Source of the DNA: an uncultured Spirochaetaceae bacterium
GTDB lineage: Bacteria > Spirochaetota > Spirochaetia > Sphaerochaetales > Sphaerochaetaceae
Assembly (NCBI GenBank): GCA_944389295.1
Contig: CALXLV010000041.1
Span: 1-64,000, forward strand
Direction: 5' to 3'
DNA length: 64,000 nucleotides
How positions within the stretch are numbered: position 1 is the first letter of the stretch; each line of letters begins with the position of its first letter. The translations under genes and the position numbers were made by a program. The notes beneath the pieces were generated by a model, which was given only the letters and a program-made list of their open reading frames with translations, did no database searches and was not told the DNA's origin. Positions 43,700-46,437 of this stretch are shown one piece after another.

Positions 43700-44503
43700 T
43701 CAGTCTACGAGAATGACCTCTCCGTTGGGATAGCGCTCAGCAACGTACTCCCTGACGGTGTCGCTCTTGAGAGCCTCGACAAGCGCCTTAATCTTCGGCT
43801 CGTTCTCCGTTCCCTCGCGCACTGCGACGACATTCACATACGGGCTGTCAGCACCCTCAACATAGAGACCGTCGCGTGTAGCGATAAGTCCTGCCGGGAT
43901 CGCATAGTTGCCGTTTATGACTGCGGCATCAACATCGGGAAGAACACGGGGAAGAGATGCGGCCTCGATCTCAGAGAACTTGAAGTTCTTCGGATTGTCG
44001 GCGATATCAGCGGGGACAGCCTCAAGGCCTGCACCCTCACCGAGCGTGATGAGTCCTGCGCTCTGCAGAAGGAGAAGCGCGCGTCCCTCGTTGGTCGGAT
44101 CATTGGGAATCGCTATCGTAGCACCGTCGGGAATCTCATCAAGGGATGAGTACTTGTCGCTGTAGACAGCAAGCGGCTCGATGTGGATTCCGCCGGCGGA
44201 AACAAGGTTGTATCCCCTCTCAGCGTTTGCGGATTCCAGATACGGCAGATGCTGGAAGTAGTTGGCGTCAAGCTCTCCGGAAGCGAGCGCCTCGTTGGGA
44301 GTCACATAATCCGTGAACTCGACTATCTGCAGATCATAGCCCTCGCCGGCAAGCTGATCGACGATCTGGCTGAGGATGGCTGCATGGGGATCGGGCGTGG
44401 CGCCTACCTTGATGACATTGGGATCGGACTCCTGTGCTCCGTTGGCGAACACGGGAACTGCGAGCGCGGCGAGCGCAAGAACGATAACAGCAAACTTTTT
44501 CAT
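43700..44503 (-). CDS. metQ: Methionine-binding protein of the MetNIQ importer
   Basis: 267 residues from the ATG at 44503 (GGAGA site). Signal peptide MKKFAVIVLALAALAVPVFA followed by NGAQES; no lipobox cysteine, a style common in spirochaete binding proteins. Body: VGATPDPHAAILSQI, ANYFQHLPYLESANAERGYN, IAIPNDPTNEGRALLLLQSA and INGNYAIPAGL are the NlpA/MetQ hallmarks. It delivers methionine to MetNI. Separated from metI by a terminator, its own promoter and a Met-rich leader peptide. Confidence 0.92.
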   Translation of the reverse strand: MKKFAVIVLALAALAVPVFANGAQESDPNVIKVGATPDPHAAILSQIVDQLAGEGYDLQIVEFTDYVTPNEALASGELDANYFQHLPYLESANAERGYNLVSAGGIHIEPLAVYSDKYSSLDEIPDGATIAIPNDPTNEGRALLLLQSAGLITLGEGAGLEAVPADIADNPKNFKFSEIEAASLPRVLPDVDAAVINGNYAIPAGLIATRDGLYVEGADSPYVNVVAVREGTENEPKIKALVEALKSDTVREYVAERYPNGEVILVD

Positions 44504-44589
44504 ATTAAAATCTCCAGAAATACGGATGAACCGTTCGATAATACATCCCTTGAAGGGACCCTTTTGCAGAAAAATATTCATCTGGTGGA

Positions 44590-44618
44590 AAAAGAAAGTA
44601 TCATGCCCTCTCGGGCAT
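44590..44618 (-). terminator. Attenuator hairpin overlapping the Met leader
   Basis: On the minus strand ATGCCC (44618-44613), loop GAGA (a GNRA tetraloop), GGGCAT (44608-44603), then GATACTTTCTTTTT. The 5' arm includes the last Met codon of the leader and the 3' arm overlaps its stop codon. The U-tract begins about five bases after the stem, so strength is uncertain. Confidence 0.6.
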
Positions 44619-44663
44619 CATCATGGAGGACATCATCATGGATATCATCTGAAAACTCTGCAT
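44601..44663 (-). CDS. Methionine-rich leader peptide of metQ
   Basis: 20 residues, MQSFQMISMMMSSMMMPERA, eight of them methionine, with two MMM runs. AGGAGG lies 7 bases upstream of the ATG at 44663. A competing ATG in another frame (7 codons) is only 2 bases from the ribosome site. It sits 98 bases before metQ, and its last codons lie inside a terminator-like hairpin. Together this is the layout of a ribosome-mediated attenuator that senses charged tRNA-Met. Coding and function are inferred from sequence. Confidence 0.75.
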   Translation of the reverse strand: MQSFQMISMMMSSMMMPERA

Positions 44664-44675
44664 CTCATGTCCTCC
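44625..44675 (-). promoter_or_regulatory. Leader ribosome-site sequestering stem
   Basis: GGAGGACAT (44675-44667), holding the leader ribosome site, is perfectly complementary to ATGTCCTCC (44633-44625) inside the Met-codon region. Pairing would hide the leader's translation start, giving a second RNA state. Confidence 0.55.
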
Positions 44676-44687
44676 TTGATCTAAGAT

Positions 44688-44727
44688 GACTTCATTATGC
44701 ATAAAATGGAAGTTTATGCAAGATTTT
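44688..44727 (-). promoter_or_regulatory. Promoter of metQ
   Basis: Minus strand TTGCAT, 16-base spacer, CATAAT, directly after the terminator of metI and upstream of the Met leader. Hence metQ can be transcribed separately from metNI. Confidence 0.55.
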
Positions 44728-44734
44728 TGCATTA

Positions 44735-44766
44735 AAAATAAGACGTCCGCTCTGCACGGACGTCCT
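44735..44766 (-). terminator. Terminator after metI
   Basis: Minus strand GACGTCCG, loop TGCAGAG, CGGACGTC, followed by TTATTTTT. Strong stem and U-tract. Confidence 0.85.
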
Positions 44767-44774
44767 TTCTCCTT

Positions 44775-45437
44775 TCAGCGCCTGGAGATAAGATGGCTGC
44801 TTATCCTGTCTCCAATGAACTGTATCAGCTCTACCATGACAATTATTATCACGACGGCCGCGACCATGTAGGAGGGTCTGAAGCGCTGGTAGCCGTATCT
44901 GATCGCCAGGTCTCCAAGTCCGCCTCCTCCGATCGCTCCAGCCATGGCCGAGTAGCCGATGAGGTTTATTATCGTCAGCGTCACGCCCGCGGCAAGTGAT
45001 GGCAGCGCCTCGGGAATCAGAACCTTGACTATTATCTGCCAGTTCGTCGATCCCATCGCCTTCGCAGCCTGCACAACTCCCGGATCGACCTCCTTGAGCG
45101 ATGACTCTATTACCCTCGCGACGAAAGGCGCCGCGGCTATCGAGAGCGGTATCACCGTGGCCATCGTGCCGATGCTCGTTCCTATTATGAGGCGCGAGAG
45201 CGGCATCAGGACTATCATCAGTATGAGGAACGGGAACGAGCGGAGGATGTTCACAATGCGCGAGAGCACGCTGCAGAACACTGGATGGGGAATAATGCCC
45301 CCGTGCTCCTCCGGCCCAGTCACATGCAGAAGCACTCCGATCGGGAAGCCCAGAACCATCGAGAAGATCGTGGAGAGGAAAACCATGACAACAGTCTGCC
45401 ATGTCGCTTCAAGAACCAGATTGATCATCGTAGACAT
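44775..45437 (-). CDS. metI: Methionine ABC transporter permease
   Basis: 220 residues, start one base after the metN stop. Five membrane segments; the EAA-loop lies in VIESSLKEVDPGVVQAAKAMGSTNWQ (split here across two helices), then GAIGGGGLGDLAIRYGYQRF, both MetI signatures. Membrane channel of MetNIQ. Confidence 0.93.
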   Translation of the reverse strand: MSTMINLVLEATWQTVVMVFLSTIFSMVLGFPIGVLLHVTGPEEHGGIIPHPVFCSVLSRIVNILRSFPFLILMIVLMPLSRLIIGTSIGTMATVIPLSIAAAPFVARVIESSLKEVDPGVVQAAKAMGSTNWQIIVKVLIPEALPSLAAGVTLTIINLIGYSAMAGAIGGGGLGDLAIRYGYQRFRPSYMVAAVVIIIVMVELIQFIGDRISSHLISRR

Positions 45438-45438
45438 A

Positions 45439-46437
45439 TCACACCTCCCCCGACTCTTCGACGTGGACGCCCTTCTCCTCAAGCATCCTCACTGCAGATT
45501 CCGCAACCTCGCCTTCCGGTCCGATGTCGGTTATCATCACGCCCAGCTCCTCGCCGTCGACAGTCTGGACGCCGGCCGCCCTGATGTTGAAGATCGCGCC
45601 GGTTGCGGAGGAGACTGCGGAGATGATCGGCTCGTCTGTCTTTCCGCCGCGGAAGCGGAGAGTATAGTGACCGCCCTCCTTTGACCATCTGATTATAGAC
45701 TCGCGGACTGTCGTCAGCGATGAGAGGAAATCCTTTGTCACGGCGTGATGCGGACTGGCGAAGATATCGGAGACCTTTCCCTCCTCGACGATGCGTCCTG
45801 AATCGAGCACCGCGACACGGTCGCATGCATCCCTGACAACCTCCATCTGGTGCGTGATCATCACAACGGTGAGGTTCATCTTCTTCTGTATCTCTTTTAT
45901 CAGGGCGAGGATTGAGCGAGTGGTCTGGGGATCGAGCGCGCTGGTGGCCTCGTCGCAGAAGAGTATAGAGGGATTTGTGGCAAGCGCCCTTGCTATCGCG
46001 ACCCTCTGCTTCTGTCCGCCGGAAAGCGTCGAGATCGGGGCATTGCCCCTCCTCTCAAGGCCGACAAGGGCCAGAAGCTCCTCAGTGCGCTTTTTTATAT
46101 GCTCCTTATCCATATGGCAGATCTCCATAGGATATGCGATATTGTCCGCGGCGTTGCGGGAGGAGAAGAGGTTGAAGGTCTGGAAGATCATGCCGATATG
46201 CCTTCTTTCCTCTATCAGCTCCTTTCTGGAGAGATTGTCCACGCGCTTGTCGTCATAGTAGACCTCTCCGCTGTCCGGGGCCTCAAGCATCGACACAAGC
46301 CTCACCAGTGTGGACTTTCCCGCGCCGGATTTACCGATTATCCCATAGACGGTGTTGGACGGTATAGAAAGAGAGACATCCTCGACCGCATGGAGCTTGC
46401 CGTAGCTCCTTCTGAGATTTTTAAGTCTTATCTCCAT
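45439..46437 (-). CDS. metN: Methionine ABC transporter ATP-binding protein
   Basis: 332 residues. Walker A GKSGAGKST, signature LSGGQKQRVAIARAL, Walker B ILFCDEATSALD, H-loop TVVMITHQM. The C-terminal ~90 residues form the NIL domain that binds methionine and inhibits transport. Follows the glycerophosphodiesterase gene by 18 bases, so the two may share a transcript. Confidence 0.94.
   Translation of the reverse strand: MEIRLKNLRRSYGKLHAVEDVSLSIPSNTVYGIIGKSGAGKSTLVRLVSMLEAPDSGEVYYDDKRVDNLSRKELIEERRHIGMIFQTFNLFSSRNAADNIAYPMEICHMDKEHIKKRTEELLALVGLERRGNAPISTLSGGQKQRVAIARALATNPSILFCDEATSALDPQTTRSILALIKEIQKKMNLTVVMITHQMEVVRDACDRVAVLDSGRIVEEGKVSDIFASPHHAVTKDFLSSLTTVRESIIRWSKEGGHYTLRFRGGKTDEPIISAVSSATGAIFNIRAAGVQTVDGEELGVMITDIGPEGEVAESAVRMLEEKGVHVEESGEV

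Follow-up and report, generated by a model that had tools for sequence, protein, structure and literature searches.

The window, the whole stretch of 64,000 nucleotides that was analyzed, carries the genes of a methionine ABC transporter on its minus strand in the order metN-metI-metQ, with metQ as the third gene. metN (45439-46437) encodes an ATPase with a C-terminal NIL domain (PF00005, PF09383), metI (44775-45482) the permease, assigned from PF00528 and from its position adjoining metN and metQ, and metQ (43700-44503) the substrate-binding lipoprotein, which matches PF03180 with E = 3.7e-95 and NF008285 (MetQ) below the cut-off of that model. The metQ Shine-Dalgarno (SD) sequence GGAG is at 44515-44512 on the same strand. 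metI and metQ are separated by a gap of 270 bp, containing the metI terminator, a promoter-like site and then a leader ORF. The predicted intrinsic terminator (AGGACGTCCGTGCAGAGCGGACGTCTT and ATTTTTAATG; 44740-44766, minus strand) has a d'Aubenton-Carafa score of +24.8, and separates metNI from the metQ unit. The promoter-like sequence TTGCAT-16-CATAAT (44694-44721, minus strand), predicted rather than mapped, lies just 5' of the leader, and transcription is predicted to start near A44687 within a conserved CATC. This arrangement, i.e. TTGCAT...GCATAAT...CATC, is common to most relatives. Since both the metI terminator and the promoter-like site precede the leader, it probably serves metQ alone.

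The leader ORF (44601-44663, minus strand) encodes MQSFQMISMMMSSMMMPERA followed by a stop codon. It runs from an ATG at 44663-44661 to a TGA at 44603-44601, and eight of its 20 codons are Met, counting the start. The sequence AAGGAGG lies about 8 nt 5' of the ATG. A 20-codon ORF with eight Met codons and its own ribosome site ahead of metQ was the starting point of the first-pass annotation, and its coordinates are right. Of the 138 short ORFs with an SD in front that the window contains, none is richer in Met codons (the runner-up has four), and the maximum in such ORFs from 20 Markov-simulated 64-kb windows was three to five. A His-rich ORF on the plus strand (44376-44684), antisense to the leader, is an artefact of the ATG repeats.

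Searching with the MetQ protein, leaving the motif unused, retrieved 22 orthologs of the same genus with readable upstream DNA. An equivalent leader ORF is found in the same place in all 22, with the Met clusters and the hairpin P2 described below, and an SD sequence in all but one. Comparison of the relatives' metQ leaders, which had been proposed as a check of the first-pass annotation, shows the ORF and its Met clusters to be kept throughout the genus set, a conservation well in excess of what chance would give. Of the 48 genomes of the genus, 46 have the P2 pattern, by which most of the leader sequences were found. Family-wide, the leaders compared number about 80 different ones, two of them (L104 and L105) in Bullifex porci, a culturable member of the group. 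Covariance-model searches place the leader in 8 of the 22 genera of this family of Sphaerochaetaceae-type spirochaetes; models R1 and R2 find it in 81-83 of 138 family genomes, the higher count including one false match in genus g22. It was absent from other families of the class, both by covariance models and by pattern search. In lineages such as g25, g26, g18 and g22 metQ is directly 3' of metI, and there is no leader there, nor before metN where that region could be read. Pattern matches outside the spirochaetes (Gemmatimonadetes, Rhodoferax, Maricaulis, Erysipelotrichaceae L111 and others) were judged from their ORF context to be other-frame fragments or chance, and three weak model matches (L307, L315, L316) have no leader.

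The composition of the ORF was examined in 73 non-redundant leaders. They differ in length (17-27 codons) but maintain the frame, and ATG occurs 392 times in frame compared with 10 out of frame. Met makes up 27% of internal codons, with fixed places at −8, −6, −3, −2 and −1 relative to the final Pro. The N-terminal half is not conserved, and in this variable part Met constitutes 6.6% of codons (p = 2e-7 against an assumed background of 2.6%). Cys is the most frequent replacement for Met, mainly at −7, where NNC also serves the pairing. The placement of Met is partly tied to RNA pairing, but the N-terminal enrichment is seen as well. A C-terminal MMMPxRA is common, yet its final residues track the P2 stem, with RA, GA and WA varying with the base preceding GGGCA. 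Certain leaders instead terminate as MMMP-stop or MMMR-stop, or carry CP for MP. One subclass ends MMMR-stop (ATGATGATGCGC then TGA or TAG) and has a compensatory GCGC in P2 (L243, L309, L317 and L318); all four precede divergent metQ paralogs. The comparison supports a Met-codon leader that is conserved, looks translated and belongs to methionine genes.

The leader SD sequence GGAGGACAT (44667-44675, minus strand) is also the 5' arm of a helix that we term P1. Its 3' arm is an anti-SD sequence ATGTCCTCC (44625-44633, minus strand) lying within the Met-codon region. That the ribosome site can pair with its own Met region had been pointed out at the first pass; the pairing is exact over 9 bp, and it covaries. 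Pairs taken from the same leader have a mean energy of −13.9 kcal/mol compared with −10.8 kcal/mol for swapped partners (z = −11.2, 0 of 20,000 permutations), although swapping leaves some relatedness; with 46 representatives below 80% identity z = −9.6, and control windows gave +3.8, +2.8 and −3.0. The types found include GGAGGAC/GTCCTCC, GGAGAGC/GTTCTCC, GGAGAGT/GCTCTCC, GGAGAGAC/GTCTCTC, GGAGGCA/TGCCTC and GGAGGTA/TACCTC. On average, the SD is predicted to pair with the Met region with a probability of 0.70. Two leaders without an SD sequence, L149 (about 3000) and L114 (about 1714), are also without P1; their ATG is at the expected transcription start and they are apparently leaderless. 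The covariation supports selection on the pairing of the SD with the Met region.

The second hairpin, P2 (44603-44618, minus strand), opens in the last Met codon, and its final T belongs to the stop codon too. Its arms ATGCCC (44618-44613) and GGGCAT (44608-44603) enclose a GAGA loop, and its predicted probability is 0.98. P2 is almost invariant, which is no evidence among leaders selected by its pattern, but it is kept as well in leaders that were not so selected. Compensatory versions exist, ATGCGC/GCGCAT in L243 and L309, and TGCGC/GCGCA in L317 and L318. The stem and loop described earlier as a GNRA-capped, terminator-like element are thus present, but a GNRA loop is seen in this species alone, relatives having mostly GTCA or unrelated loops, and the terminator scores are weak. 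As drawn, P2 has a negative d'Aubenton-Carafa score in all 73 leaders, and with an extended stem the score is positive in 15% of 40, with a median of −7.8. By comparison, terminators after metQ are 97.5% positive with a median of +34, and coding controls inside metQ have a median of −56. P2 is thus intermediate between the two. Since its scores are well below those of the gene-end terminators of the genus, it was rejected as a canonical terminator in the form first proposed, and it may instead be a weak or assisted terminator; the earlier reading has partial support.

Past the leader stop codon is a U-rich, G-depleted tract TACTTTCTTTTTCCACCAGATGAATA (44575-44600, minus strand), G-free over 44600-44583. 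Family-wide, positions +3 to +34 after P2 contain 4.5% G compared with 18.5% farther downstream, with C exceeding G in 73 of 73. By composition, a C-rich, G-poor rut-like stretch is therefore present 3' of the leader, and a rho gene is encoded. The order 3' of P2 is RR followed by a U-rich stretch; TTNTTT comes right after P2 in 28 of 73 leaders (13.5 when shuffled), and a motif resembling CCACCACAT recurs in the tract (27 of 82 against 2.2 expected). Among relatives the spacing to metQ is 79-160 nt. Between the tract and metQ there is a third small hairpin TCCCTTCAAGGGA (44546-44558, minus strand), which sequence comparison finds in part of the genus only. It is of the GGGTCCC...GGGACA type with variable sequence, 40-50 nt past the leader stop (relatives L003-L009, L083 and L014).

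Among the windows tested for covariation, only the pairing of the SD with the Met region covaries. The SD of metQ was compared with all upstream windows, the Met region included, and covaries with none of them (no z below −2); its sequestration by the Met region was therefore rejected. Visual inspection had suggested that the CACCACATCAT tract might pair with the Met region, and this was discarded for the same reason. No covarying alternative pairing that could be an antiterminator was found in these windows, though the nearly invariant P2 could not reveal partners in this way. Rfam covariance models, those for the SAM riboswitch and T-box included, gave no relevant match in the window or the leader. 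SAM-I riboswitches occur in 13 of the 48 genomes of the genus, with metK as their gene where the locus was read (L270), and none was detected in the incomplete genome to which the window belongs; T-boxes occur in all 48, on thrS in the single locus read (L267).

The genes that follow the leader indicate the signal. Most leaders precede metQ, and others precede divergent metQ paralogs (L068, L160, L163, L123, L133, L243, L309, L317 and L318), metN (L098), the O-acetylhomoserine sulfhydrylase MetY (TIGR01326; L305), the homoserine acyltransferase MetA (PF04204/NF047918; L306) and an operon of an oxidoreductase and a methionine-aminotransferase-like gene (L304). In genus g28 a leader lies before an oligopeptide-type binding protein (SBP_bac_5; L099 and L100), a context that suggests uptake of Met-containing peptides. 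In our view nothing speaks more strongly for methionine as the signal than this independent recurrence before genes of methionine uptake and synthesis. Comparison of the sequences shows the ORF with its Met codons, both P1 and P2, the tract without G and a regulon of methionine genes.

We consider that this is quite probably a leader-peptide attenuator of methionine genes that senses Met-tRNA and is ON in starvation. Stalling of the ribosome, and the direction of the response, are inferred by analogy with known attenuators. Transcription would begin just 5' of the leader, and a ribosome would load on the strong leader SD. When methionine is replete the ribosome would pass both Met clusters, terminate at the stop codon inside P2 and depart. 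P1 would then close over the leader SD, P2 would reform, and transcription would end before metQ. It could do so at the weak element formed by P2 and the U-rich stretch, perhaps with help from NusA or NusG, or through Rho loading on the G-less C/U-rich tract. Termination may thus be intrinsic or Rho-assisted. When charged Met-tRNA is scarce the ribosome would stall on the Met run abutting P2, holding P1 open with the SD free and P2 melted, and transcription would reach metQ. A simple scheme in which the stalled ribosome blocks a terminator arm requires quick release, or slow or assisted termination, since P2 would be covered by a ribosome at the stop codon as well. Also against the model are the poor terminator score of P2, the finding of neither a covarying antiterminator nor a covarying partner of the metQ SD, and the need of initiation itself for fMet, by which severe starvation could shut down the leader. 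A more specific proposal is a family-wide spirochaete methionine regulon under a leader-peptide attenuator whose layout would be new: the leader SD finds its anti-SD in the Met-codon region itself, the sole downstream hairpin is melted directly by the stalled ribosome with no antiterminator, and Rho or NusG finishes termination on the adjacent G-less tract. This is plausible, if just short of an even chance.

How the signal is transmitted could differ from this scheme. With methionine sensed in the same manner, the leader might act mainly by controlling access of Rho to the C/U-rich G-less tract, as in tnaC or mgtL, with P2 a pause or spacer hairpin and not a terminator. The failure of P2 in canonical terminator scoring, the low G content of the 32 nt after it with C above G in every leader, the recurrent CCACCACAT and the presence of rho all agree with such a role. 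Yet the conserved T-rich order right after P2 would suit pausing or intrinsic termination, and the tract lies beyond the reach of a ribosome stalled on the Met run; we hold this version tentatively, as a possibility we would not favor. Alternatively stalling might affect the stability or translation of metQ mRNA in an erm-like manner, leaving termination unaffected. A strong terminator is indeed absent, and the AU-rich single strand between the hairpins might be an RNase site, but the variable spacing to metQ and a metQ SD that covaries with nothing upstream make this unlikely. Transcription attenuation, by a weak or assisted terminator or by Rho, is favored over translational control because the metQ SD has no covarying partner, P2 scores weakly, the tract lacks G and rho is present.

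Other readings concern the peptide itself. The common MMMPxRA C-terminus could be an arrest peptide of the TnaC kind, detecting methionine or SAM from within the tunnel of the ribosome. However, the residues follow the P2 stem, and leaders ending MMMP-stop or MMMR-stop or with CP for MP exist, so we think this very improbable. Least credible of all, and largely refuted, is that the ORF encodes a stand-alone small protein, such as a metal-binding peptide, or that it arose by chance or as an antisense frame. A Met/Cys-rich composition might suit the former and the readable His-rich plus-strand ORF the latter. Against these stand the unconserved N-terminal half, selection on RNA pairing, a regulon of methionine genes, and antisense frames that are not conserved, being broken in 72-82 of 82 relatives.

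Attenuators are textbook material for Trp, His, Leu, Thr, Phe and Ile, whereas methionine genes had been assigned to riboswitches, T-boxes or repressors. Sensing methionine by stalled translation is awkward, as fMet starts every protein, and a conserved working example would show how a cell tells scarcity of elongator Met-tRNA apart from loss of initiation. The leader group spans gut and environmental spirochaetes, and the leader would mark the members of this regulon in a gut spirochaete lineage that is large and for the most part uncultured. The usual RNA controls of methionine genes are the S-box (SAM-I) riboswitch and the T-box; the metQ leader matches no Rfam family. No family of Met-codon leaders was described in the literature searched, which is weak evidence given that subscription papers fell mostly outside the search. 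The earlier statement that no Met-codon attenuator had been described thus holds for a family, but a leader named metL has been predicted before metNIQ in a single genome, Streptomyces lividans, with no conservation shown (PMC8079986). Like the present leader it is a small ORF before a methionine importer with no clear intrinsic terminator; it differs in its unrelated peptide MSTTSDRTPATEATTTPGARCMCRRMCAF, with only two internal Met, and in its actinobacterial host (PMC8079986).

The leader shares with the trpL, hisL, leuL, thrL, pheL and ilv attenuators a promoter-proximal short ORF, runs of regulatory codons, hairpins that overlap the ORF and downstream genes for the same amino acid. It differs from them in its use of Met, in that no strong terminator/antiterminator pair was found, in an anti-SD within the Met codons and in a stop codon inside the second hairpin. 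The layout is compact, the codon run being itself the anti-SD. In Escherichia coli trpL the leader ribosome site is masked by pairing, as here, and pyrL is an example of a leader of this class that has no antiterminator helix. Leaders of the tnaC and mgtL type control Rho; they too have a C-rich, G-poor stretch past the stop codon, and in them the position of the ribosome decides readthrough, as it would here. The spirochaete leader is distinguished from these by its many codons for the very amino acid whose genes it precedes, which stand in a run, and by having no conserved arrest peptide.
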